From NCBI GenBank assembly GCA_037042915.1, contig CM073197.1, positions 3,224,001 to 3,288,000 of the forward strand: a DNA stretch of 64,000 bases. Reading direction: 5' to 3'. A model generated the notes under the pieces. The model was not told the origin of the DNA. It did no database searches and saw only the letters and a program-made list of their open reading frames with translations. Below are positions 33,699 through 63,482 of this stretch, one piece after another (the first letter of the stretch is position 1; each line of letters starts with the position of its first letter). This stretch comes from Auricularia sp. M13. Taxonomy: Eukaryota > Basidiomycota > Agaricomycetes > Auriculariales > Auriculariaceae. Both the position numbers and the translations under genes were made by a program.

Positions 33699-34300
33699 TC
33701 ACGCCGCCACGCCGACGGGAATAAGCATGATCTGGAACGGCGCCTGTCCCTTAAGCTCGCCGTAGCTCGCGTGCACGGCCCGCGGCGCAGCGCGGTCGAC
33801 GGGCGGGTTGTCGTACCACCACCAGTCGCCGTTGACGTCGAGCTCCCAGCCGTACACGGTGCTCTCGACGCGCACGCCCTCGCTCGTCGCCTCACGCGTG
33901 CAGTCCAGCAAGCCGTCCGCCGCGCCCACCGCGCAAACGCCGAGCGGGCCCGCGACGGACGCCGCGAAAATCGTCGCGCGCTTCGTGGGCGTGTAGGTGA
34001 TGGTGAACTCGGGCTCGGCGTCCGCGACGGGCGGGAGCAGGGTGGGCTTGGCCGGCGCGGAGGTGGGCAGGAGCGTGCCGTTCGCGGAGATGACGCCGAA
34101 CTGCGTCTCAGTGCCGGCAATGTAGGCGAGAAGCTTGGCCTTGAGCTACAGCACCGCCCGGTGTCAGCCAGCGAAAACTTGAGCGCGGTGAATGGGACAC
34201 TCACAGGAGGAGGACCGGTTGGCCTGGCTGCCTGGCGCAGCGCATAGGGTGCGGCCGAGACGGCAGCAGTGAGGGCAAGAACGAAGGTGAGGCACTTCAT
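33699..34300 (-). CDS. Small secreted protein, function unknown
   Basis: Two predicted exons, 34300-34205 and 34145-33699, with a 59-nt intron (GTGAGT donor, TGTAG acceptor), give 180 residues. Residues 1-16 form a clear signal peptide (MKCLTFVLALTAAVSA). The mature protein has only two Cys (in GPLGVCAVG and GLLDCTREA), which could pair, and a Trp-rich segment DVNGDWWWYDNPPVD. No family was recognised. Compact secreted proteins of this sort are common in agaricomycete secretomes and may be wall-associated or effector-like; that is inference. Composition matches the surroundings. Confidence 0.75.
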
Positions 34301-37500: not shown

Positions 37501-38060
37501 TTGGCAACGGCGTGACAGGCACCCGCAAGACTGAGCGCGGGGACCGCGTGAGAAAGCGGCGTAATGAGAGCACGCGGAGTGCGACAAAAGCGATGAAAGT
37601 GCGCGCTGAGAGCGCGGGGGAGCGTGTGCCACAAAGGGAGAGCACGGCAGAGTGCCACAGGCAGCCACAGGCACCGATGAAAGGTTCGATCGGGCGTGCG
37701 TGGGCGAGCGAGGATAAAGAGTGCCACAGGCGGCCTCAGACATCGACAAAGCAGTGGTCGATCGGGTCTGCGTGGGCGAGCGCGGCGAGGGCGCGAGGAT
37801 ACAGTGCGGCGGGAGCGCGAGAACGGGTGCCACGAAGGCACGAGGACGAGTGCGACTGGGGCACGAGGAGCGACAAAAGCGCGAGGATGTGTGCCACGAA
37901 GGCAGGAAGACGCGCACTAGTTCGACTGGGGCACGTCGTGAGCGAGTGCGACGAACGCAAGAGGAGAGGATGCGACATGAGCGCGACAGGTAAGCGCGAC
38001 GAGGGCGCCAGGACGAGTGCGACGAGAGCACGAAGAAGCCGCCAGCCGGGTATAGAGAAT
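37501..38060. repeat. Degenerate minisatellite
   Basis: A roughly 560-bp tract of imperfect tandem repeats. The clearest pair is a unit of about 65 bases beginning AGAGTGCCACAGGC at 37649 and again near 37718 (period about 69), each ending TGCGTGGGCGAGCG. Further on, short units around GTGCGACNNGNGCACGAGG recur from about 37840 to 38030 with variable spacing. Frames stay open on both strands through the tract because the repeats lack stops; this is not evidence of coding. Confidence 0.7.
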
Positions 38061-38566: not shown

Positions 38567-39027
38567 TTAGTTGGCGTCCTCACTGGCGAGTCAGAGTATA
38601 TTAGCTCCGAGACGGTAGGGAAACGGTAAGTACTTACGCCTCTCCGGCGCGGCTGGTGCGCGACAACGGCCATGAGAAACTGCACAGAAAATACAAGAGA
38701 AGCTTACTGGTGGCCTCCGCGGCTGTCGTGAAATGTGAGAAAGTGTCCATATCAGGCCGGAGTAATAACTCACTGAGGGCGGTGGGGGCGGTGGCGGCTT
38801 GAAGAGGCCGTCAGCCGGCCGCAGAACCGACGCAGGTAATAGGATAGTAGAGGCAGCTACTCACTGACGAACGTCGTCGGTGACGCTGAGAACATTGCCA
38901 TCAGTACGCGATAACCGCGCTCAGCGGAGCTGAGAGCTTACCCTTCGTCGGCAGTGGCATCAGTCGCAGCGACGAACGCCACAGCGGCGAAGAGGACGAG
39001 GGCGAGAGACTTGAGGTTGAAGATCAT
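38567..39027 (-). CDS. Micro-exon gene for a small secreted His/Arg-rich peptide
   Basis: Six predicted exons: 39027-38942, 38885-38865 (21 nt), 38797-38774 (24 nt), 38722-38708 (15 nt), 38679-38638 (42 nt), 38582-38567. They give 67 residues: a signal peptide (MIFNLKSLALVLFAAVAFVA), an acidic stretch (TDATADEGVTDDV), a His/Arg/Pro core (RHRHRPHRPHRGGHH) and the tail FSWPLSRTSRAGEAEDAN. Every internal exon is a multiple of three and every intron is in phase 2, so any exon can be skipped without a frameshift. Donors are strong (GTGAGT, GTAAGC, GTAAGT). The intron after the 15-nt exon would be only 28 nt, below normal size, so that exon may be skipped (62 residues). A TATAAAAG box lies about 70 bases upstream. 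The His-rich core could bind metal; the role is unknown. Confidence 0.65.
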
Positions 39028-39102: not shown

Positions 39103-40142
39103 CCTTTCCTGAGACAGCATCCTCGCACAGACTCGCATATTCCTGAGCCCTCCCTAGCTAAGAATAATTGCTCCAATGACAGTAATTTTGTATTCTCTGC
39201 CGTAAGTGCCCCCCTAGCCACCTCCTGTGCCGTAAAGTAGAGCGCTGTGCCGTAACCCTCCTCTCCCACGCAGAGTGAGCACAGAACGGCTATGCTGACG
39301 CCAGCGCAAGTTGAGGCTTGGACTGGTCCTCGGAATCTGACGCTCCCATTCATTCGCAGACAAGTTCTTCCGTCGGCTGCAGAGCACAAGTTGTAGACGC
39401 TCCCGAGGGAACGATCGTGCGTCTAAACACTGCATAAACAGTGGTTGACAGGTTGCGTGTCGTCAGCTGAGCAAAAGCGCTCTCGGCTCTTTTCATTGTG
39501 TCTATTGCGCTACTAGCACGCACAGAGACGCCACGACATCTGCATCCATGTCAACAATGTGTTATTCTGGGCAGGATATTATTCCAGATCATTCGGATTC
39601 CCGAGGAAGGTATATGATTATCATGGTTCTCAGGCCTCCCAGGCCCTTGCGTACTCTCCGCTGTACATCTATCCCGGCAGAGCTATTCTCACCGGTCTGT
39701 AAGCAATTACTTCTCTAAAGAAAGCGTTACGTACGCCCAAATGAAGCCGTGAGCGAATGTCCTCCATATAGAACCGGCTCGGACATTCCAAAGACGACCT
39801 GGCCAGTCCGTCGAAGGCCTTTGCAATGCCGGAATATGAAAATAAAAGTGGGCACTACCAGCTGACTAGTCGAGCTACGTCGTTCTCTTTCTGTGTGCCG
39901 ATGAGAAGTACTTTGAACCGAGCCATCCAGCGCCGAGCGGTGTAAAGGGGGCTGAACTGCGCAAAACGCACGTGCCCGTACACTCCCTCGCTGGAAATAT
40001 CCCTCTGACTCGAGGCACGTGTAACAGCAAGGTGTTATTGGTCGTTGAGCATGTAACTGCTGATGTAACGCATGTGCAATGTCAAGTGGATTTTGGTTCG
40101 CCAATACTGTACACGACAGCTTTATTCTCTACGCTCCCTCGC
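39103..40142. other. Intergenic region
   Basis: Distal promoter of the peptide gene and 3' flank of the GH31 gene. No gene was recognised. Confidence 0.5.
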
Positions 40143-45341: not shown

Positions 45342-46836
45342 TTAGTAGCGCTTGAGCTGCAGCAAAGTCAGCATCCCTGAGCAGTCGCAAAGGATCGCAA
45401 CACATACCCTGTTGGTGTTCCTGACGACAGCAACGTCAACGTCATCCGTCTTCCTCTCCAGCGTCTGGATGCGGTTGTTTTGCCTGTCGACCTCCTGGCC
45501 CATCGCCAGACCGAGGTTCTTCATGCGCGCAACGGCGTCGGCGATGCCGTCGAGGTTGTCGTCCAGCTCGTCCTCGAGCTCGTCGTCGCTAGCCGTGGCT
45601 TCAAACTGGTAGCGCTTGCGCTGCTCCTGGCGCAACCGCTGCTCCGCCTCGGTGCGGTACCTGCCCGAGCCTCCGGTGCCGCGCGTCGGGGCGCCATCTA
45701 AACCGGCGCCCTGATCATAGTCGTCCTGGCCGTATGAGTCCTGGCGGCCATACGCTGCGGCGCGCCCGATGCGCGCCTGCGACTCGCGCACGTCCGCTGC
45801 GTTGCGGTCGAGCTCCTCGCGCTCTTCCTGGTGGCGCGCAAGCATCTTGGCCTCCTGCGCCGCGCGCTTCTTATCCTTGTTGAACACGATGACCGGCCGG
45901 AAGATGGACTTGTTGAGTTGCTTCAGCTCGTCCACCTTGTCCTCCGCGCGCCGCGAGTTGTACTTGGCGATGTCCAGATGCCGCTCCGTCGCGCCCAGTT
46001 TCTCTGCAATGAGTGAAGTGTGAGCACAGAAGGGGAACACAACACAAATCGGACGTAAGCGCACCGGACTGGTCGCCCAGCTTGATGAGCGTGTTGGTCG
46101 CCGTTTCCTCGGCCTCGCGGGCAATGCGCAGGGCGTTGCGCGTGGACGCCAGACTCTCCTGCTTAGTGGCCTTCATGCTGGTCTTGATGGCCTCGACGTC
46201 CTCCTCCTCATCGCCGCCCTCCTCGCGACGGCGGTCCCAGTCCTGCTCCGTCGGAAAGCGCTGTTCCTGGTCGTTTCCGAGGCGACGGGGCACATTGGGG
46301 TTGTAGCCGGAGAACAGCGCAGCGCGGTCGGCGTCGAGGTTGGCGTCGCCGCGAGAGTACGGGTCGCCGGCTTTGACAGGAGCAGGCGAGGATCGCGCGT
46401 AGCGATCCGGGACTACCTGCTGCTGGCTGGGCGTGCCGTAGCGAGCAGGGGGCTGCTGCTGACCGCCGCCATATCTGTCTGGCTGCTGCTGCTGGCCTCC
46501 ACCGTAGCGATCTGGCTGGCCACCGCCATATCTGTCGGGTGTGCCATAACGGGCGGGGGGCTGCTGCTGCTGCTGGCCGTATCGGTCTGGCGCTGCGCCG
46601 TACCTGTCCGGCGCAGCGCCATAGCGGTCGGGAGCTGCGCCATAACGGTCAGGCGCTGCGCCATAGCGGTCAGGCGCTGCGCCATAACGGTCGGGCGCTG
46701 GAGCTCCGTAGCCTTGGCCGCCGCCTGGCGCGCCGTAGGGGTCTTGCGGCCGCCTGAGCTTATTAGGGCCAGCCTGCTGGTCCTGTGGAGGCGGAATGGC
46801 CGGACTGTTGTTGTTGCTGCGTCGAAAGAACGACAT
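45342..46836 (-). CDS. SEC9: Sec9/SNAP-25-type t-SNARE
   Basis: Three predicted exons: 46836-46065, 46003-45408, 45356-45342 (a 15-nt last exon encoding LKRY and stop); 460 residues. It is a plasma-membrane Qbc-SNARE that pairs with syntaxin (Sso) and synaptobrevin (Snc) for exocytic fusion. The N-terminal ~150 residues are low complexity with a tandem heptapeptide DRYGAAP repeated five times and then DRYGQQ/DRYGGGQ variants. Two SNARE helices follow: the Qb helix around ATKQESLASTRNALRIAREA joined over the intron to EKLGATERHLDIAKYNSRRA, and the Qc helix DDNLDGIADAVARMKNLGLA to QTLERKTDDVDVAVVRNTNR. As in yeast Sec9 there is no Cys palmitoylation cluster between them. The spacer is Gln/Glu/Arg-rich. 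The repeat tract is 21-bp tandem DNA at about 46585-46700. Confidence 0.95.
46585..46700 (-). repeat. In-frame 21-bp tandem repeat within SEC9
   Basis: About five near-identical 21-bp units encode DRYGAAP in the N-terminal tail of the SNARE. The units keep frame and differ by only a few bases, so copy number is likely to vary between strains. Confidence 0.85.
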
Positions 46837-47628: not shown

Positions 47629-50600
47629 TCAGCTGAACTCGCCGACACCAGGGCCGAAATGCTCGCCCTCGCCGAGCTTCTTCAGCGGGCAGCGCCTGGC
47701 GTCGCAGTTTTCGACGAACGGCTTGCTGTTGCCGACCCAGTCGAGCTCGATGCCGTGGTACTGCAGCGCGAAGAACATGATGATGCCCACGATGGCGATC
47801 GCACACGAGAAGGCGGAGGTCGTGATGTAGTTGTACCTGCGTCAGTCAACCGGTGAGTGAGTACTGACTCTGGGGAGAGTGGAAATGGGGAGGTGCGCAC
47901 TTCGACCACCAGGCGAGGTAGCGGCGCTTGATGTACACGTTGAAGAGCCACGCGACGGGCACGACAGGCCAGACGTTCGCCAGACTGTACGGCGCCCAGA
48001 TCAGGCCGCCGGTCATGATCGCGGGGAGATGGACCTATCCAGTCAACTTTGTGAGACACGCGGTCGAACGGTGATGACGAGCTGAGGAAAGGCTTACGCT
48101 CTTGAGGAACTTGAAGCGGCGGCTGAGGAAGTAGAAGATGACCGGGAGCGCGGCGCCAATGAGGAAGAACCACACGAGCGCGCTGTAGATCGCGCCGACG
48201 CCGAACATGCGCTTCGGGCCCAGCGTACCCCACAGCACAGACGCAGTGCTGCGACAGTGTGAGACTAGTTCAGGCTGGACGATATGAGATGGGGGGCTGC
48301 TGCACGTACAAGAAGGTGTTGATGCCCGGGCACGTGAAGTGGTCCTTCTGGTCGGGGTCGCAGACATCGGGAATTTTGGTGAGCTGAAAGTTGACGATGC
48401 CGACGGAGACGACTAGCAATCACCGGGGGTCAGCGGTGAAGATGCTACGCGACGAGTACTCACAGGTGGAAACCAGCGTGGCGACCATCTGCGCGGCGAA
48501 GGTGACGCGGGGTGCGATGTGCGTGTAGTGCGCAAGCTTGAGATCCTGCGCGAACGTGATCGTGTGGGCAGTCGTGACGTAGCCGTAAGACTTGAAGACT
48601 GTGGAAAAGACATGAGTAAACAACGTTAGTTCTGTCGAAGACGCAGCATCTCACAGTTCATAGCGAGAGCATTGCCTTCGAACCAGGCACCACCAATGAA
48701 CTCGGCCAAGACATTAAGCGTGATGCTGACGTTGGTCGTAGAATAACTATAGTGCAACAGTCAGTCTCTGCCGTCGTGTATAAAGGGGTAACGGACATAA
48801 CGCCAACTGCGAGAACTCATCAACGAAGGTATCGTGTGAAGCGGATAGAACGTACTGGGTATGCAGAAAATAATGGCGAGGAACACGCCGTAAAGGACGA
48901 CGGCCGGGGTGGTCGTTGTCGGCCATGCACCAACACCGGCAGCACCAAGCGCAATCGAGCCAACAAGGACAGAGAAGTACCACCATTCGGGGACTTCCTT
49001 GTAGTTGCGCATGATGCGGCTATGAACGTCGTTGTTGGTCTTGAGGACGTTCGTCTTGGACAGCACGCTCTTCAAGCCCAGCCAAATCTCGCGGCGATGG
49101 TAGAGAATGGCGTGCGACACCGTGGAGGAGTACGCCGCGAAGAAGATGCCGTACTGAGTGACGATCAGGAGCTTCCGATAGGCGGAGAACTGGAGCACTT
49201 ACGATGAAGATGTTGGCTGCCGACAGGTAGGCCGGCGAGTACTGTTTGAAGGCGTCATGGTCGAAGAGACCCGAATCGTCGACGGTGCGGGACACGTTGT
49301 AGCGCTTGCCCGTGTTATCGAACACACCGTTACTACGAGGTTCGTCTCAGTATCGCAGGCAGAAAGTATGCGTTGGAGGGGACTACTCACGAGTTGATCG
49401 GGAGGTATGCAGTGTACCACACGTTGGACCAGTACATCGCAACGATGATTGGGAAGGTGATGAAAACTCCGGAGGCCCACTGAGAGGACAGTCAGCCGCC
49501 GCTCGCTACCTCTACGGGCAAACGTACGTTCATGGTCGTCTATTGGCAACCGCGAGTTAGCCACATGCACCCTACTAAATTAAGTCACGTACGTAGAAGG
49601 GGTTGATCCATGGGTCGCTGTAGGCGCGACGCGGCTTAGTTATAGTGCACGGAAGTTGAAGAAAATCTTGCATACGAGTAGAACTGGTTGACGTCGAACG
49701 TCGGGAGTGGATTCAGACCGAGACCCGATCCGCCAGTGCTGCCAGTAATAGCCGCAAGTGTCACGTTCTGAAACACGAATCAGCAAGAGTATCGATACAT
49801 GAGAGTGAATTAGTCACCTGCGGGTCAATCCAGACAATCCAGTTGAAGAACGACAGGGCCTGGAAGAGGTAACCTATTTGTGTGTTAGGCACGTAGGAAT
49901 GCAGCGCAATTGACAGCTGGCATACCAGGGAACCAGAAGTAGACAGCCATGCCGCCGAAGCAGTACATGAAGTACCGCATACGGGACACCTTCCATCCGT
50001 TGGCAACATCGTTCCTTCCTGAGTGGAAAGCGCGATTCAGCGCGATGGTCGCCAAGTTGGAGTACCAGATAGCGTGTGTCGGGTACACCAGGAAGCGGCG
50101 AGTCAAGCCAGCAAGGCCATAGCCGATGAAGTTCGTCGACAAACCAATCAGAACTACGCTGTGTGAGAGTTACCTCGCTATGGGATGCACCACGAACTCT
50201 GGTATCCGAAGTCTGACGCCCACGGCATGTTGAAGAAGCGCGGGATGTACTGGACGAATACTGTGACCGACGAGTATGAGAACGGGCCATTGATAGGCAG
50301 GGACATGGGACTTGCCGACGTAGTTCCTACAGTCAGAGAACGTCAGCTTCCAAACATTACAGGGCGAGTCGAACTGACGTGTATGGAGCACCAAAGCCGA
50401 CATTCGCCATGATGGTGATAACCTATGCAAGTATTAGACTATACGTATATCGGCCTCCGGGCAGGTACCATGTGCTCCTTCATGTTGAAAGGACCGCTAA
50501 GCGAATATAAGCAAGCTATATTGACAATCAAGCTGAGCTCTTACGGATTCAGAGAGAAGCTTTTGCCAAAGACTGTCCATTCACGCGTGGGAAGGACGCT

Positions 50601-51497
50601 TTCGAAGAGCTTGCCGGCAGGGTATGCCAACAGTTGGGCAACGTTGGCTCCAACGGCTGAAGGAACGTCAGGAAATGAAGCTGATGTGACTTGCGCACGT
50701 ACAGATGGCCGGGTAACGGATGGAGAAAAACTACACAAGCATGTTAGACGAATACGGTGCGCTGCGATCGGATATAACCTGGTTGATGAACGCTCTGCAG
50801 GACGGTCAGGGCACATCGCGTGGCGATAAGATAAGTAATCACTGACCCCGCAGCGACGAAAACGAGACCGATCGCCCATGCACTGCCCAATTGTTATTCT
50901 GCTTGGCAGGCCTACGAATTGGTCACGTACCGGAAGGTGCTCGCTGGCAGAGACGGGTCATCGTGGTTATCGACCACAGCACGAACTTGGAGATGATGAG
51001 CACCAGACGCGCAAACGCTTGGTCAGCGACGAACCTTCGGGGTATGGACTGTTGAACAGGATCAAGGCCGCCTCGATCTTGAGTTCTTGGTATAGCCTGT
51101 CGTACGTCGCCGGGTCTTTCTCGCGGAGGTCCTTCTCCTCAAGGAAGCGGTGAGCAAGGGCAAGAACCTTGGACGGGAAGTTCGGGTCGTATGTATGCTA
51201 CAAACAATGTCAGGGATGTGCCACGCTTATGCCAAGACAGCTCGCACGTTATCGACGATGTCCCGTGCGGCCTTGAGAACATCTTCCTCAGTGAGGTTGT
51301 CAGACTGTGCGATGGCCTCTTCAATGTCCGCGCCAACGGCTTGGATGTCGGCCTCGAGCTCAGCCTATGGCGTGCTGTAAGTTGTCATGCAGAGCGGCAA
51401 TTGCTATAGGACATACGACGTCTGGAACGACGTGCTTCTCGTCGAAGTGCCCCTTGTCCGGCGATGGAGTGCGTTTCTCGTCGACTGAGTTGGTCAT
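47629..51497 (-). CDS. OPT-family oligopeptide transporter, copy A
   Basis: Proton-coupled small-peptide importer of the plasma membrane. ATG 51497 opens MTNSVDEKRTPSPDKGHFDE; the frame ends at 47629 with the tail GVGEFS. About 20 short exons are interrupted by ~50-60 nt introns. Diagnostic pieces include a helical cytosolic N-terminus (DNLTEEDVLKAARDIVDNV), PAGKLFESVLPTREW, the OPT signature NPGPFNMKEHM spliced together near 50530-50465, multiple membrane spans, and AIWYSNLATIALNRAFHSGRN. These place it in the OPT family of tetra/pentapeptide and glutathione transporters. The exon order and positions mirror copy B, so the two arose by tandem duplication. TATAAAG lies at about 51574-51580, some 80 bases upstream. 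No break in the frame was noticed, although I did not fix every exon border. Confidence 0.9.
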
Positions 51498-53878: not shown

Positions 53879-56800
53879 TTACTCAAACTCGCCTACGCCA
53901 GGACCGAAATGTTCGCCCTCTGCGAGCTTCCTGAGCGGGCAGCGCCGGGCATCGCAGTTGTCGAATGGCTTGCTGTTGCCAGCCCAGTCGAGCTCGAAGC
54001 CGTGGTACTGTAGAGCAAAGAACATGATGATGCCTACGATGGCGATGGCGCAGGAGAATGCCGAAGTGGTGATGTAGTTGTACCTGCCAATCGCCGTGAG
54101 CGAATACAATTTGCTGAAAAAGCAGAGGCTCCATACTTCGACCACCAGGCCAGGTAACGACGCTTGATGTATACATTGAACAGGAACGCCACGGGAACTA
54201 CCGGCCAAACGTTGGCCAAGCTGTACGGCGCCCAAATGAGGCCACCTGTCATGACAGCAGGGAGATGGACCTGGCCCGATGTGTCAGGACGGCGCACGAA
54301 AACATAGTCATACGGACTGTTTTGAGGAACTTGAACCGACGGCTGAGGAAGTAGAAGATGACGGGCAGAGCAGCGCCGATGAGGAAGAACCACACGAGCG
54401 GGCTGTAGATAGCGCCAACGCCGAACATGCGTTTGGGACCCAGTGTGCCCCAAAGCACCGATGCCGTGCTAAGAGATCGTGAGCCTGCGATGACAAATGC
54501 CTACCGTAGACCAACAAGAAAGTATTGATTCCAGGACATGTGAAGTGGTCCTTCTGGTCGGGATCGCAGACGTTTGGTATCTGAGTGAGCTGGAAGTTGA
54601 CGACGCCGACAGAAACGACTGTCAAGGGAGTGGCTTCAGGGACCCAAAAAAACCGCTCGGCAGTGGAATTGACTTACAGGTCGAAACAAAGGTGGCAACC
54701 ATCTGCGCGACGAAAGTGATTCGCGGAGCGATGTGGGTGTAGTGCGCGAGCTTGAGATCCTGCGCAAATGTGATCGTGTGAGCGGTCGTGACGTAGCCGT
54801 AAGACTTGAAGACTAGAGAGAAGCGTGAGATTAGTGCTCGTTGCGCATTCGAGCGGAAAAAAAAAAAAGAATGTTCACAGTTCATTGCCAGAGCGTTGCC
54901 TTCGAACCAGGCACCGCCAATAAATTCCGCCAAGACATTCAGCGTGATGTTGACGTTGGTGGTAGAATATCTTGGTGAATGTTCGAGTCAGATCACGAAA
55001 ACCCGCGATTTTAAACGCTGCCTACATGACACCAACTACAGAGATGAGCAGGTTAATTAGCTGAAAGGATTGCGATAAATTGGAACGTACTGGGGATGCA
55101 GAAAATCAGTGCCAGAAACACGCCGTACAGAACGACAGCCGGAGTCGTAGTGGTCGGCCATGCACCAACACCAGCCGCGCCGAGCGCGATGGATGCAACC
55201 AAAACGGAGAAGTACCACCATTCCGGGACCTCCTTGTAGTTGCGCATAATGCGGCTGTGGACGTCGTTGTTGGTCTTGAGGACGTTCGTCTTAGACAGAA
55301 CGCTCTTCAAGCCCAACCAGATCTCGCGGCGATGATAGAGGACCGCGTGTGAGACAGTAGAGGCATAGGCGGCGACTGCCAGGATGTCAGCCGAAGTCAG
55401 GTCGGATAAAGGCTTCACTCACAGAAAATGCCGTACTGAATGTGATGACAAGAGTTATTCAGCTCGCCAAGTGCATACTCTGTGTACGTACGATGAACGT
55501 ATTTGCGGCCGACAAGTACGCAGGCGAATACTGCTTGAAAGCCTCATGATCGAACAGGCCCCGCTCATCGACCGTTCGCGATACGTTGTAGCGTTTACCC
55601 GTGTTATCGAAGACACCGTTGCTAGCACAAGTCGTTGAGTAGAGGTAAACCTAGATCGTCGTGCGCTCACGAGTTGATCGGCAAGTAAGCCGAGTTCCAT
55701 GTATTGGTCCAATATAGAGCGACAATAATCGGGAAGGTGATGAAAGTGCCGCTGGCCCACTAAAAAAATCTTAGGCTGAATGATGGTTATTGTAGAGCGT
55801 AGCACGCACGTTCATCGTCGTCTATTTGCGAGACGGATGGATCAGTCCAAGAGTGGGGGAGAAGAGCGATATACGAACGTAGAACGGGTTGATCCATGGA
55901 TCCCTAAGCCACCGTTCAGCGATAATGCAATCCAAGCAGCGGCACAGTTCAGCTTACGAGTAGAACTGGTTTGTATCGAATGTCGGGATCGGATTGAGTC
56001 CGAGGCCTGCAGAATATTAAATCGCGTCGAGGGCAAGGGAGGTCACATACCTGACCCTCCGGTGCTGCCAGTAATGGCGGCAAGCTTAACATTCTGTGGA
56101 TCACACGTCAGCGAGCCTATAAGCAGATTTAAAATGGATCGGACATTGGGATCAATCCAGACGATCCAGTTGAAGAAGGAAAGTGCCTGGAAAATGTAAC
56201 CTAGAGTTTCGTCAGACGAAGGGCAGCGATGCAGTCATACGCATCCACTGACCAGGGAACCAGAAGTAGACGAACATGCCGACGAAGCAGTACAAAAAGT
56301 ACCGCATACGGGTTATCGTCCATCCGTTCGCAACGTCGTTCCTTCCGGAGTGGAACGCGCGGTTCAGGGCGATGGTGGCCAGGTTGGAATACCAAATGGC
56401 ATGACTCGGGTAAACAAGGAACCTGCGGGTCAGACCCGCAAGACCATAGCCAATGAAGTTGGTAGAGAGTGCTATGAGAACTGTACGACGGTAAATAGAG
56501 CGCATCGCGAGTTTATCCTTTCCATACTCTGGTAGCCAAAATCTGATGCCCACGCCATGTTGAAGAAGCGCGGGATGAACTGCACGAAAACTAATGAAGT
56601 ATTAGATCGCGGGATGAAACAGCGACGAATGAGGACTTGCCAATATTGTTCCTGAGACGACGGTCAATGGGACGCAGTTCGCAGCCGTTGGAGGAGGCCG
56701 ACTTACGTGTATGGCGCCCCAACACCAACATTCGCCATGATAGTGATTACCTGTATTGCGCGGAGTTCAGGCAGGACCAACGATCGAAAGGCTGCCAACT

Positions 56801-57846
56801 AACCATGTGTTCCTTCATGTTGAAGGGTCCCCTAGGAGGTGTAAGGATTTATATCCGACGACATATTCAGATGCGTACGGGTTCAAGGTAAAGCTACGGC
56901 CGGCAACGTTGAATACCTTGGTTGGGAGGACGCGCTCGAGGAACTTGCCCGCTGGGTAGGCCAGCAACTGCGCGACATTGGCTCCGACGTCTGTATGATC
57001 CAGCTTAGTATTATACGATACATACGACACGAACGTACAGATCGAGGGGTAGCGGATGTCGAAGAACTGCACACGATATGAGCAAGGACTACAGTACGTG
57101 GCCTGCAATCCTGACCTGATTGATGAAGGACCTGCGATATCGTGAGCAGCTGCGTGATGATGATGGCGGGTTGAACGTACGCTGCTGCGACGAAAACCAG
57201 GCCGATCACCCAAGCGCTGTGCAGATGAGGTGGTCAGTCAGCGCGCCTCCCAGAGAATGGTGCGCATACCGGAATGTGCTCGCAGGAATGCTCGGGTCGT
57301 CATGGTTATTAACGACGGCACGGACTACCAGACTGTGAGTCCCAGGAGAAGGGTTGGTACTGCCTCAGCGAACCTTCAGGATACGGGCTGTTGTAAATGA
57401 TCAAGGCGGCTTCGATCTTCATCTCTTGGTAAAGTCGCTCATACAGCGCCGGGTCCTTCTCTTTCAAGTCCTTGTCTTCGAGGAAGCGCTGGGCCAGGGC
57501 GAGAACCTTTGACGGGAAGTTCGGATCGTATACGTGCTGAGGCATGGTAAGCCACCGTAGGCTCATCTGACGGGGTCGTCCTCACGTTATTCACGACGTC
57601 GTGAGCAGCCTTGAGCACATCTTCCTCGGTCAAGTTCGCAGACTGAGTAATGGCCTCCTCAATATCAGCACCGACGGCCTGGATCTCAGCCTCGAGCTCA
57701 GCCTGGCGGGCGCGCTTTCAGTTATCGGGCTACGATGGCCGGGAACGGCAACACAAACATACAACGTCGGGGATAACGTGCTTCTCATCGCGGAACGAGT
57801 CCTTCTCGGGCGACGGCGTACGCTTCTCGTCTGTCGCGGAGGCCAT
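53879..57846 (-). CDS. OPT-family oligopeptide transporter, copy B
   Basis: Paralogue of copy A with the same direction and near-identical architecture. ATG 57846 opens MASATDEKRTPSPEKDSFRD and the stop is at 53879 after GVGEFE. The N-terminal SNARE-like cytosolic helices are missing from the family core as in other OPTs; instead it has DNLxEEDVLKAAHDVVNNVR. Core motifs match copy A: PAGKFLERVLPT, NPGPFNMKEHM (near 56830-56790), FIGYGLAGLTRRFLVYPSHA and SNLATIALNRAFHSGRNDVA. Introns fall at equivalent sites in both copies, so duplication was through DNA, not a retrocopy. A TATAAAG at 57918-57924 lies about 75 bases upstream. Divergence is moderate in coding sequence and complete in introns and spacer, which suggests an old event and probably different substrate or expression range. 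Confidence 0.9.
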
Positions 57847-60062
57847 TGCGGCGGCGAGTGAAGGAGAACGGCGAGGAAAAGTGGGGCGCAAGAATCACGG
57901 AGAGATGGTGCAAGGGCTTTATACAGGCGCAGCGCGAAAGGTGATCGTATAGTCAGCACCGCCATGACATTCAATAGCATGTTCCGAGCTGATAAGCCCG
58001 ATGTAACGCTCGAGAACATCCACATGGAGCGCTCCAACCCAGAAGACCCGTACCACCCCCGCAGCCGCTCGATATCGAGAGAGCGTCGGTCGCTTCCTCT
58101 CATCCTCTGAGGAACAAGTACAGTGGGCTCTAAAAGCCATTATGAATGGGAGTACGAACGCGCGACCGCGAAGCACATGGCTCAACGCACAGCGCACAGG
58201 GAAAAAGGCCGCGAATCCGTTTGCGCCGGCGATCTGCAAGCGCAGCAGGTTCATCCGGCCGTCAAATCGCTCCTGGCAGATTCCCCGACGGGTTCTCTCG
58301 TGCCCAGAAATGAGCTCTCGGAAGCGCTGACCACGCCGCAAATGGTGCCCCAGGCTTGATTTAAGATCCCACAACCCAGAGCGAGCTGCTGAAGAAACGC
58401 TGCGGATGGCAAACCGTGCCAAGACCATGTATCCAGTCACCTTCGCTCCAACTATCATGGGCTGATGCGACCCGGGCCGGCTACAAAGTTCCATGGGAAT
58501 GCGAGAGTACAGCGTCGCAGCGGACCATACAGTACGAGGTCACGGGCCGATGCACCAAGGATAGAGAGGGGCTCTGTGTGCGTTGGCAGCGCGATAACGA
58601 GGTGTCGTGAGCTTCTATCATCAACGTAACACGCAGAGCACGGGGTGTCCGGTCAGGGCGAAGGCAGATAACGCCGTAAAAAGCCCAAGCCCATATGGCG
58701 ATTTGCAACGGCAGCCTCTGAGCAAGGAGCACGCCGCCAGCACGCCAGATCCAGAAACCAGGAAACATCAGAAGGTTGCTGACATAATCAGCAGCGGCGT
58801 GTGAGCGTGATGACCGCAAATTGCGCAGCAGGAGATGTGGTCGGGACAGTCCGCGGAGCGCAGCAAGCTGGCCGAAAGCGGGCGGTGACAGAATCTGTGG
58901 ATCAGGCGCAAACGGGACGGGTCAGAGAACGCGCGATGTGAACTGATCAGTGCAAGCAAGTAGGGCTCAGTCACCCTCCAGAAGCAGTTAGGCCATGAGC
59001 AACGAAAGGCGCTATGACAGGCGAGCGGACATCTGTGCCGACCAGGTGCAGTCGACCGTTGGGGCCGAGCGAACTCCACGCAAAGGCTGAATGTGCTTCA
59101 CCTAAAGGACAGCCTTGGCACGATAAAGTAGGAAAATACCAAGAGCGTAGTCGGAGGGCGAGATCAGCGATGACGACCGTAAAAGGAGTTGGCGGGAGTG
59201 CGGTGTAGGCGACGAGGGCATGGACGAAGGAGCGATTCATACGCTGGTTGAAAGGTGCTGCTTGCGGTTGCTACATCAAAGAGAAAGCCAAGCGAGTCGC
59301 CGCTCACCAGGACCAGTGCAAGCCCAGCGTTGGCGGGCGGCCAGGTGGCATAGCCAAAGAGCAGCGAGTAGCGGGCCCTGTCGCGCTGCCGAGCGGTGCA
59401 GCAAGATGTCGCGCAGGCGGCAGACGGCGTCCCAGAGGGCCTTATCTTGCCAACGAGGTGGGGGGAAGAGAACAAGCGGTTGGGGATTGCTCGGCAAATG
59501 GCGGTTTTCTCAAAATCGTCAAGCTTCGTGTTTGCGGATTGCTCGATCGGAGGCAGGCACTCGGGATTGCTCGGGTCTTGGGAATTTATTTCGAACATAA
59601 GTATGGGCATAACTTGGTCGTACATGCTCCATATATCCTAGCACTTCAGCTGGTCATCTGGATATGGAGCCTTTTTCGCTACGTCAGGCGTTATTTTGCT
59701 GTGAGCGGTTGACGCGATCACGAACAGTCATCATCCCAAATTTGAATCGGAGGCGCTTGCACTGGCAGTGGTGCACCTAGGACTCACCTGATCCGGCCTA
59801 TCCGAATAGGTCGTGATGGTACGGACGCGTCGCTATACGAATAGGGGATTTGCGTCAGCCCGACGCTCAGCTGGATTTTGCTGCGCATCGCCGCGCTCGT
59901 GCCGGGCCATGTGAATTGAGCAGGATGCGGCTGAGATTGCTAAGTCCGCGCTGCTTGCAGCGGCCTGAAGCTACTTGACGTACACGCGTCGCAAGACCCT
60001 GAGCGCACGCGCAGCCTGGTGCAGGGCCTTGCTACAACACTTTTCAACACTCTCATTCAGGC
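57847..60062. other. Long interval before the KDZ transposase
   Basis: About 2.2 kb with no recognised gene. It contains the copy B promoter and should contain the 5' terminus of the KDZ element, which I could not delimit. A short hairpin CCTAT-CCGA-ATAGG lies near 59800. Confidence 0.4.
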
Positions 60063-63000
60063 ATGTCGAAAGCACGACATGCAGTGCGCCGACCGCGGGT
60101 TAGAATGTCTGTGAGCGGCGTAGACGGGCAGGGCCATATTGTGACCGAGAAGCGCGTCGTCGGCCCGCGCACTGAAGAACAACTCCGTGAGCAAGGGGAT
60201 AGAAATCGTGCCGTTTATGATAGAGGTAGATATCGAGCTGCGTTTTCTCTGCAGTCACAGATACTCAAGCTGCTGCAGCGGTACAGAGTGCTGGTTTGCA
60301 GTTGCAGGCCTTGTCCGATGACGCTCCCGACGATCCCTGGTCTCCTGGACGTGACATTGACGCTGACCCGATGGACGTCGATGCTCCCTTGGCTCCCGTC
60401 CAGCAAATACAGCCTGTGCTCGACGCTTTCATGCGATTGAAGCGTCCGTACGTGATACAGTCCTTCATGCATGCGTTGGGCACTCAAATATGCTCAGCCG
60501 CGCGTCTCGGACCTCTGCAGCGCGTTCTTGGACCATGAGATATGTGTCCTTGCGTGCAAATTGGTCCGAACAACGCGACGCGCTGGTCACCGCCTATCTC
60601 GAACTCCTCCATTCCCAGCCTGCTTCAGGAGCTCCACCGCCTGCTGTTTACCCGGACTTCATTTACAGGCTTGAATATGGTCAAAGGCGGGATCCTGGGC
60701 GCGTTGTTCTCATCGATATCTCTGGTGAGTTTGTTCGCCCGACGCGTCGGTCTTCCACTGACTCCAGGCAGGCATTTACTCCATCCCGGTCGAAGCGCTT
60801 GGCATGGGCTATCGCAACGTTGCTCTGGTGCACAGGGGCTATCTAGGCGCCGCACCGATGCAGCCTGGCATCGCGTTTTCGCTGCGATTGCTCATGCAGT
60901 ACTTGCGTTTGAAAACACGCGGGCGAACAGCAAAGCAGAACTATATACGTGCGCTCTGCGACTTACACAACGTAGGCTATGGTACCCGGTCTCTGAATTG
61001 TACTCATTCTGTTTTCAGGTCCCGTATCTTCGCTCTCTGACCAGGCCATTCTCGGACGCGATGGACGCCTTGACCATGGTCCTGCGGGACATCGACAGCC
61101 GTGTCGCGGGGGCGCTGGGCAGGACGGGTGATTGGCGCATGCGAAACGCGTGCCCAGCATGCAGTTACAAGGTCATACGTTTTCTCATGCTGGTCGCGTC
61201 CGGTTTCTGACGCACTGGTTCAGTGCGAGGCAGAGCCGCCGTTGCGCTTCGCGCGACAGTACACAATGGACGGGAATAACTCCCTGAAACGTTTTACGTC
61301 AGGCTGGACGCCCTTCCTCGATTTCTATCCGTCCCAGTACATCTTGACTCGTGAGACAGTCAATGAATGCGACAGCGAGGTTGCGCGCCGCGCCCCACCT
61401 TCGACGAGCGGCCCTGCGATCGACAGGAGCTCCACGGGCATCGAGCAGAGCGAATGCAAGGACAGGTGGAAGAATATGCGATCTGACTCGCAGAAGAAGG
61501 CTTCCTGGGACGCACTGGAGGAAACGGGCATCTTCGTGTGCGTATGCCGTCATGGATTCGTCTTCGCCGCTGCCGACATGGTGCAGAGCGGCGAACTGTA
61601 CGTTCTCCTCTCATATTCTTATGACTTACTGACGCGTCTGCTCAGCGCCAAGTATGCTCTCTCGATCGACAAGAAGCTCATCGAGCTATTCCAGGATGAG
61701 GGCGTCGTGCAGCTTGGATACGATGTCAATTGCGGCCACTCTATTACTGCCTCGCGATCCACCTTCGGCACTGAGTACAAGCGCCATATCTTCCCAGTAA
61801 ACGGACGCTTACATGGCCATGCGCACAACCGCCTGTGCCAACTCAAGAACCACCCCGACCTCATTGAGGGCTCTGGCCGCGAACCGTTCGAAGGCTGCGA
61901 GCAGCTGTTCTCCGTTACCAACCTCATCGCGTCGCTTGTCCGACACGCGACGCGTTGGCATCGACATGAAGACATTGACCGCGCACTGGCTGCCTGGGAT
62001 CAAGAGAAGTATGCTGGCATTGGTGCGGAACTCTCGCAGTGTTATGCTTTCTGTGTTGCTGACCAGTGTTGCTCTAGGAGGTCTTTTACTCAGCAAATAT
62101 AACGACGCGTCTGCTAAGCTTGTCGAGCACAAAGAAGACGTTCGAGAGGCGGCCGAGCATTGGCGCTTCACCGACGACACGTTCAAGGAGTTTCTGCGCG
62201 CAGAGCGCGCGTTTCTGGAGAGCAAATCGGACGAATCCCCAGCAACGACTCTGGAACAACTTGAGGACGAGTATGTGCGTGTATTGGATCTACTTTGGGC
62301 TGCGCAGTACGTCTTTCAGTGTCGCAGCGGTCCCCTGGCCCTGCTAACCGCTTGCAGAGTGAAGAAGGATAAATTGCCGCGCCCCTCCGCTGCAGTGCAG
62401 GATGCGCTGACCCAAGGACGCGTCCGGGCGCCCCGAAACTCGACCAAGGCCGACAAAGACTGGCTCTCTGCCCATCGCGATGCGCTTCGCTGGGCACCGC
62501 TGGCAACAGACCTCGAGGATAAGCTGCAACTTGCAGCGTCGTGGACGCCGACGTGTCCGGAATATCGCGCAGCTGTAAACGCCAGAGCTCAGCGTACGTG
62601 TAATTCTGCTTTGCACGATCTCGAGGTTGCTGTCGTGGCACGGATACACGAAATGGAGAAGATGAATGTGCGAAACACAGGTGCGTGCGACATTGTGGGG
62701 GATAGAACTATTTCTCACGTATTCTATCTGTGTGCTAAGGCTACAATCTCCGGCAGTTGATATCTAAGGAGCTCTCGCGGCGCAGCGGCGCCATCCTGAA
62801 GCTTCTGGATACTTACAACACTGCTGCCCGAGCTTGCGATCCCCCCCGTACGACACTCCGATCAGATGAATTGCTCAACGCGGCATTTCTCGCCGACTTT
62901 GCCCTGCTACGATATGACACGGGCGAGCAGCCATGGGCCCAACGCCGATTCCGAGAGTTGACGCGCGCTTGGGCCGCGACAAAGCGGGCAAACGAGGAGA

Positions 63001-63482
63001 TCCAACGAATTCGGATTGAATGCGTACGCATACGGACATGGATAATCGACGAAGAGCTGTCTCAGGCAAGCACAATCCGTACGCTGTCACTTAGCGCTGA
63101 TACGCTGGAGCAATTACTTGCAAGAGAGCTGGACAGTCGCGCCTACGTCCAATCCCAGATGCACACCAAGATTCTCGAGGATCTGGATAAACTGGACGCG
63201 CTGGACGGTCACAATGGTCCGCGCACACCAGGATGGCGTGCCAACATGCAGCACACGGACGAGCAGCACACGGTTCGGGAGCCTCGCACACGCGTCCGGT
63301 GGACGCGACTTGCCCCATACACGCGGGTAGAGCCAGGCATCAGTGTATCATGCGCAGCACAGATGCGTACTGCGATGCCCAATGATGCAGAGCTTTCAGA
63401 CGACAGTGACCACGAGTTGGACGAGGAGGAACAGCAGGAATTGGATAGTATAATGTTGGTCCTTGATGCTGTTACCTCGTAG
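60063..63482 (+). mobile_element. KDZ-superfamily DNA transposon: transposase gene
   Basis: Multi-exon gene for a Kyakuja-Dileera-Zisupton transposase, a class expanded in mushroom genomes. In order it shows an Arg-rich start (MSKARHAVRRPRVRMS), the segment RANWSEQRDALVTAYLELLH, VVLIDIS, GYRNVALVHRGYLGAAPMQP, NACPACSYK, the first catalytic block YTMDGNNSLKRF, CKDRWKNM, ETGIFVCVCRHGFVFAAADM, YDVNCGHS and EGCEQLFSVTNLIASLVRH. The three acidic catalytic positions are therefore visible (MDGN, YDVNC, EGCEQ). A long helical C-terminal region (LVEHKEDVREAAEHWRFTDD onward) and an acidic tail end at 63482. The last two coding blocks are 61101-62102 and 62757-63482 with overlap frames between. No inactivating change was obvious, so it may be recent, but its terminal repeats and target duplication were not found. 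Confidence 0.88.

Follow-up and report, generated by a model that had tools for sequence, protein, structure and literature searches.

A micro-exon gene that very probably encodes a small secreted peptide in Auricularia sp. M13

Does a minus-strand segment of 461 bases in the Auricularia sp. M13 genome, in which short open segments alternate with splice-like sites, encode a secreted peptide, and if so, in which reading frame and as one product or many? The question was addressed within a window of 64,000 nucleotides, the whole stretch of DNA analyzed here. The segment, positions 39027–38567, is very probably a real gene, a small one of six exons that very probably encodes a secreted peptide of ~58 residues. 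Sequence support for a secreted-peptide gene with several symmetrical micro-exons is good. The open spliced frame, the splice sites and the signal-peptide-like start were located in silico; transcription, secretion, the frame of exons 3–5 and function we infer.

Predicted gene structure

A small gene finder was written for the analysis and trained on the window minus the locus, with 104 introns. Fifty of these represent 25 positions common to two tandem OPT paralogues, and the other 54 are the finder's own predictions in high-scoring genes, made without paralogue support. Intron length was restricted to 40–140 nt in both training rounds. Because of the training on its own predictions and these length limits, the finder's scores are relative only. 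A stricter setting, with an intron penalty of −4, scored the locus at 9.9 with exons of 86, 17, 24, 85 and 16 nt; this setting was dropped for scoring because it split the OPT and other genes into pieces.

The preferred gene model (model B) starts with the ATG at 39027 and its stop codon ends at 38567. The six exons of 86, 21, 24, 15, 15 and 16 nt form a coding sequence of 177 nt, specifying 58 residues, and the model scores 34.9 with the window-trained finder (Table 1). The five introns, 56, 67, 51, 55 and 55 nt in length, are all in phase 2, and each carries a donor, a branch site (CTGAT, CTGAC, CTCAC, CTCAT and CTGAC, located 9–21 nt from the 3' end) and an AG. Unspliced read-through past the exon 1 donor, GTAAGC, leads to an immediate stop. 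Among 3000 sampled structures, the five acceptors are supported at 0.93–1.00 and the donors at 38941 and 38773 at 1.00 each, and the exon 4 donor at 38707 is used at 0.69 with the alternative at 38694 at 0.31.

The original prediction for this locus had proposed the same start and stop together with exons of 86, 21, 24, 15 and 16 nt, and the frame is open at all of these borders. The predicted TATA box was also found in place. The additional 42-nt exon of that prediction (38679–38638) could not be retained. It requires a fourth intron of 28 nt with a branch score of −1.7, and was rejected because of that intron length and the lack of a good branch site; the model containing it scores 24.1, compared with 34.9 for model B. 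The following acceptor produces a 55-nt intron with the branch site CTCAT and a 15-nt exon. With matrices derived from the 50 paralogue-shared introns, the corrected model scores 31.1 and the 42-nt-exon model 21.8. Training introns shorter than 40 nt were impossible given the finder's limit, and a flat-length decode of the 40–58 kb region with a minimum of 20 nt returned 2 of 75 predicted introns below 30 nt, which counts against the rejection. With the correction, the six exons stand and the product is 58 residues in place of the ~67 proposed.

Table 1 Features of the locus and the OPT paralogues, in window coordinates.
Feature	Coordinates	Strand	Remarks
Three copies of TTACGGCA	39198–39255	minus	5' of the TATA box; possible regulator site array, function inferred
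TATA box, TATAAAA	39096–39102	minus	68 bases before the ATG; one of three minus-strand TATAAAW sites in the window
Exon 1, 86 nt	38942–39027	minus	MIFNLKSLALVLFAAVAFVAATDATADEG, comprising the predicted signal peptide and the first part of the acidic stretch; last codon split with exon 2
Exon 2, 21 nt	38865–38885	minus	VTDDVR(H); rival donor gives an end at 38869 (17 nt)
Exon 3, 24 nt	38774–38797	minus	Frame B, RHRPHRP(H); frame C, ATAPTAL
Exon 4, 15 nt	38708–38722	minus	Frame B, RGGH(H); rival donor 38694 (28-nt exon) in 31% of sampled structures
Exon 5, corrected, 15 nt	38638–38652	minus	Frame B, RAGE(A); supersedes the earlier 42-nt exon; rival donor gives an end at 38634
Exon 6, 16 nt	38567–38582	minus	EDAN and stop
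Tandem OPT paralogues	47629–51497 and 53879–57846	minus	89% identical in protein; the first matches the OPT transporter family PF03169

The TTACGGCA motif occurs five times in the window (1.5 expected), and three of the five copies fall on one strand within the 58 bases listed in Table 1.

Reading frame of exons 3–5

Exons 2 and 5 each have a rival donor four bases away, at 38868 rather than 38864 for exon 2 and at 38633 rather than 38637 for exon 5. When both rival donors are used together, the two ends of the protein are kept and its middle changes from RHRHRPHRPHRGGHHRAGEA (frame B) to PATAPTALTAEATTAPERRN (frame C). The same gene with the same acceptors would then encode an acidic Ala/Thr/Pro-rich secreted part, PATAPTALTAEATTAPERRNEDAN, making the product a plain small secreted protein that resembles a linker and lacks the His/Arg core. 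Frame C, together with its variants, is the strongest competing reading, though a less likely one.

The gene finder prefers frame C, which scores 38.4 against 34.9 for frame B, with favorable codon and amino-acid composition, and it retains the lead with the shared-intron matrices (33.6 versus 31.1). Frame C accounts for 56% of the 3000 sampled structures and a variant with a 28-nt exon 4 for a further 31%, compared with 1.8% for frame B; its exon 2 donor is present in 98%. In only 0.24% of 844 true 18-codon windows is a frame shifted by one ahead as far as frame C is ahead of frame B. The shared-intron donor matrix for exon 2 likewise gives 5.0 for C and 4.4 for B, and two of the 104 training introns, both OPT-shared, begin with GTCAGT. 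However, the lead of frame C stems from amino-acid choice, and synonymous choice slightly favors frame B (6.0 versus 4.9).

The donors themselves argue for frame B. In frame C, splicing would twice pass over a stronger GTRAGY for a weaker donor 4 nt away; none of the training introns (0/104) leaves a GTRAGY unused within 12 nt, and frame C would require two such cases. Similarly, a nearby GT (within 6 nt) stronger by at least 4 kcal/mol was found at none of 60 introns (one stronger by any amount at 11 of the 60), and again two would be required. The GTACTT donor is absent from the 104 training introns. The computed U1 pairing energies at exons 2 and 5 are −7.3 and −7.8 kcal/mol in frame B, equal to or better than 88% and 90% of training donors, and −2.4 and −3.8 kcal/mol in frame C (33% and 39%). 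With the plain donor matrix the two frames are almost level at exon 2 (B 4.3, C 4.1). At exon 5 the shared-intron donor matrix gives 4.2 for B and 0.9 for C. A further arrangement, in which one 85-nt exon replaces exons 4 and 5 with frame C upstream (model E), scores 32.8, near model B, and appears in 0.3% of sampled structures. On balance, and as a matter of judgement, the His/Arg/Pro reading of exons 3–5 is likely and frame C is the less likely of the two. The His/Arg/Pro core of the original prediction is thus a likely feature in frame B that hinges on donor choices four bases wide.

Micro-exons, exon skipping and chance

Micro-exon structure alone is ordinary, in white-rot fungi as well as in the window. 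Among the exons flanked by shared OPT introns are some of 10, 11, 12, 25, 28 and 28 nt, and a study that counted 430 small secreted protein genes in Phlebia radiata describes very short exons as a typical trait of its genome (PMC6540522). The P450 genes of Phanerochaete chrysosporium, as described in PMC1184071, resemble the locus in their widespread micro-exons of 2–10 codons and introns often of 45–55 bp; those micro-exons sit in large enzyme genes, whereas here four successive ones account for two thirds of what is secreted. Less ordinary is the succession of four micro-exons, all symmetrical in frame B, in a gene this small. The original prediction that the internal exons are symmetrical and in phase 2 holds for those of 21, 24 and 15 nt; the 42-nt exon is now corrected to 15 nt. 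In frame B all four internal exons (21, 24, 15 and 15 nt) are symmetrical, in frame C only those of 24 and 15 nt. The four exons are all multiples of three; among the 24 internal exons bounded by shared OPT introns 5 are, which makes four of four unlikely (~0.002 to 0.012, obtained by multiplying 0.21 to 0.33 for each exon).

The symmetry of exons 2–5 in frame B, and the excess over the OPT exons, would suit a fungal counterpart of micro-exon genes in which these exons act as cassettes, giving as many as 16 secreted peptides in frame. Each of the four single skips, and the skip of all four, does reach the same stop in frame, as the original prediction had it. However, any single-exon skip requires an intron of 121–144 nt. 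Introns of at least 120 nt are absent from the 104 used for training and number 2 among the 165 of the unfiltered first round, in sets limited to 40–140 nt. The strong donors argue for steady inclusion and the micro-exons are of an ordinary kind for this DNA. No sign of exon duplication was found in six pairwise comparisons of exon–intron units with 300 shuffles each (lowest p 0.06). In frame B a retained intron leads to an immediate stop in five of five cases, a result due in part to phase 2 combined with GTRA donors, a combination found in 27 of 104 training introns. Therefore, the variants to be expected are truncated products, not cassette combinations. A peptide family produced by exon skipping has no support in this analysis, and the cassette reading is very doubtful. 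An extended version, in which an independently evolved fungal micro-exon secretory gene combines four cassettes, chosen or truncated, with a four-base donor switch between a cationic His/Arg/Pro core and an acidic Ala/Thr core to give a tunable peptide set, is, taken as a whole, highly improbable.

Another possibility is that the locus is a chance run of splice-like sites with no gene. All five donors of model B are GTRAGY, near consensus as predicted, compared with 18 of 104 training donors. These five are the only GTRAGY sites within the locus on its own strand, where 0.46 would be expected in 461 bases (127 occur in the window on both strands), and the locus has one more on the opposite strand. 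The looser pattern GTRNGT is less distinctive, with three occurrences versus 0.79 expected, a count that 4–8% of windows equal. The best chain from the ATG at 39027 scores 38.4. When exon 1 was kept fixed and the downstream bases were shuffled 300 times with dinucleotides preserved, the mean was 9.6 (sd 2.9, maximum 19.6) and no shuffle matched the locus. Compared with 60 shuffled 64-kb single strands, the locus scored 30.4 and the best of 166 genes 11.2. The 38.4 and the 30.4 are both frame C values; frame B reaches 34.9 on the scale of the 38.4. Of the 2073 ATGs on the two strands of the window, two look like signal-peptide starts, that at 39027 among them, and 20 shuffled single strands contained zero to two each (none in 15 of the 20), by a pattern test that is crude and insensitive and misses the likely signal peptide of a predicted protein starting at 34300. 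With no control equalling the locus (0/300 and 0/166), and with a TATA box and a signal-peptide-like start in addition, a chance origin is very improbable.

Least probable of all is a gene of three or four exons whose coding part continues from 38772 (ELLLRPDMDTFSHF...), with the C-rich exon 3 reinterpreted as a pyrimidine tract within a 92-nt intron: this frame is open over 45 codons, but its models (D and D2) were ruled out on score (19.4 versus 34.9 for model B; 18.0 versus 31.1 with shared-intron matrices), with a poor codon score, a long intron and the acceptor at 38797 present in all sampled structures to two decimals. A sub-threshold Pfam match to PHO4 (E 0.067) was obtained for the rejected model D2.

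The predicted peptide, its genomic setting and known systems

The best explanation, held with modest confidence, is that a wood-decay-type basidiomycete has here an ordinary protein-coding gene whose product, read in frame B, is a small secreted peptide. A TATA promoter would drive a transcript from which five short introns (51–67 nt) would normally all be spliced out, joining the six exons into a 58-residue precursor; failure of splicing would result in clean truncations. The first ~21 residues would serve as the signal peptide (cut site judged by eye), leaving ~37 residues to be secreted, in which an acidic stretch precedes the His/Arg/Pro core (RHRHRPHRPHRGGHHR) and an acidic tail follows it. 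The computed charge of the core is +6.3 at pH 7 and +11.5 at pH 5, and that of the whole mature peptide −2.1 and +4.6, respectively. Because the core is more charged once its histidines are protonated, a pH-dependent cationic action is proposed for acidified wood, where the peptide may bind metals or microbial surfaces, a suggestion drawn from composition alone. There is no cysteine in the 58 residues, in frames B and C alike. In agreement with the original statement that no named family applies, Pfam returned no family for the model B or C peptide. A tblastn search for a paralogue in the window yielded, among the frame-B matches listed, none with E <0.48 except exon 1 itself.

The setting is of fungal type, with genes for a GH7 cellobiohydrolase with a CBM1-like tail, GH31, OPT and NUDIX proteins and a KDZ transposase. 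The latter corresponds to two predicted-gene pieces at 59909–63482 (plus strand) that match KDZ transposase (PF18758, E 7.7e-12), with CxC1 below the cut-off (E 2e-05). The OPT paralogues are predicted to contain 27 and 28 introns and have 25 intron positions in common; a GC-AG intron is among those present in both copies. At 33699–34300 (minus strand) a further protein (MKCLTFVLALTAAVSAAPYA...) is predicted to be secreted; it has no Pfam family. Degenerate tandem repeats of 69 and 23 nt, ~2 copies each, lie between the NUDIX gene and the locus at 37649–37867, and a 21-nt tandem repeat of ~6 copies (46572–46701) lies within a predicted coding exon whose translation has many PDRYGAA units and no Pfam family. 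A syntenic contig was sought with the last exon of the GH31 gene in prokaryotic and viral contigs, a collection without fungi, which gave 25 and 1 pattern matches, none of them confirmed.

Small secreted proteins are products of under 300 residues. With 58 residues and a signal peptide by the crude pattern test, the product falls within this class. The small secreted protein genes of white-rot fungi, for example those described for Phlebia radiata (PMC6540522), are alike in their signal peptide, tiny product, many introns and very short exons, whereas the locus peptide has no cysteine and no named family. The locus is best placed among the small secreted protein genes of wood-decay-type basidiomycetes, as one more member that belongs to no named family.

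The resemblance to schistosome micro-exon genes (MEGs) noted in the original prediction lies in the architecture: as characterized in PMC4350168, these genes also combine a signal peptide with several very small symmetrical exons encoding a secreted peptide. However, in that definition micro-exons form most of the coding region, whereas here they contribute 75 of 177 nt, although about two thirds of the mature part. The same source gives MEGs as apparently restricted to platyhelminths, whereas the neighboring genes here are of fungal type by gene content. Aphid bicycle genes, as described in PMC9168663, share a secreted product and many small internal exons, nearly all of one phase, but they average ~17 exons and carry CYC motifs, and the locus contains neither a CYC motif nor a cysteine. 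Thus, the likeness to schistosome MEGs is architectural only, and the locus is no MEG and no bicycle gene. Among titles and abstract openings in the literature, a scope outside of which most subscription papers fall, no fungal secreted-peptide gene of such architecture was found.

If the model holds, four of the six exons are 15–24 nt long and a four-base choice alters the whole core, so that routine gene prediction may overlook the secreted peptide encoded here or assign it the wrong frame. It would provide a clear test case for the definition of tiny exons in white-rot fungi. Should transcripts show regulated cassette use, the gene would represent a further independent origin of micro-exon secretory genes and its importance would be far greater.
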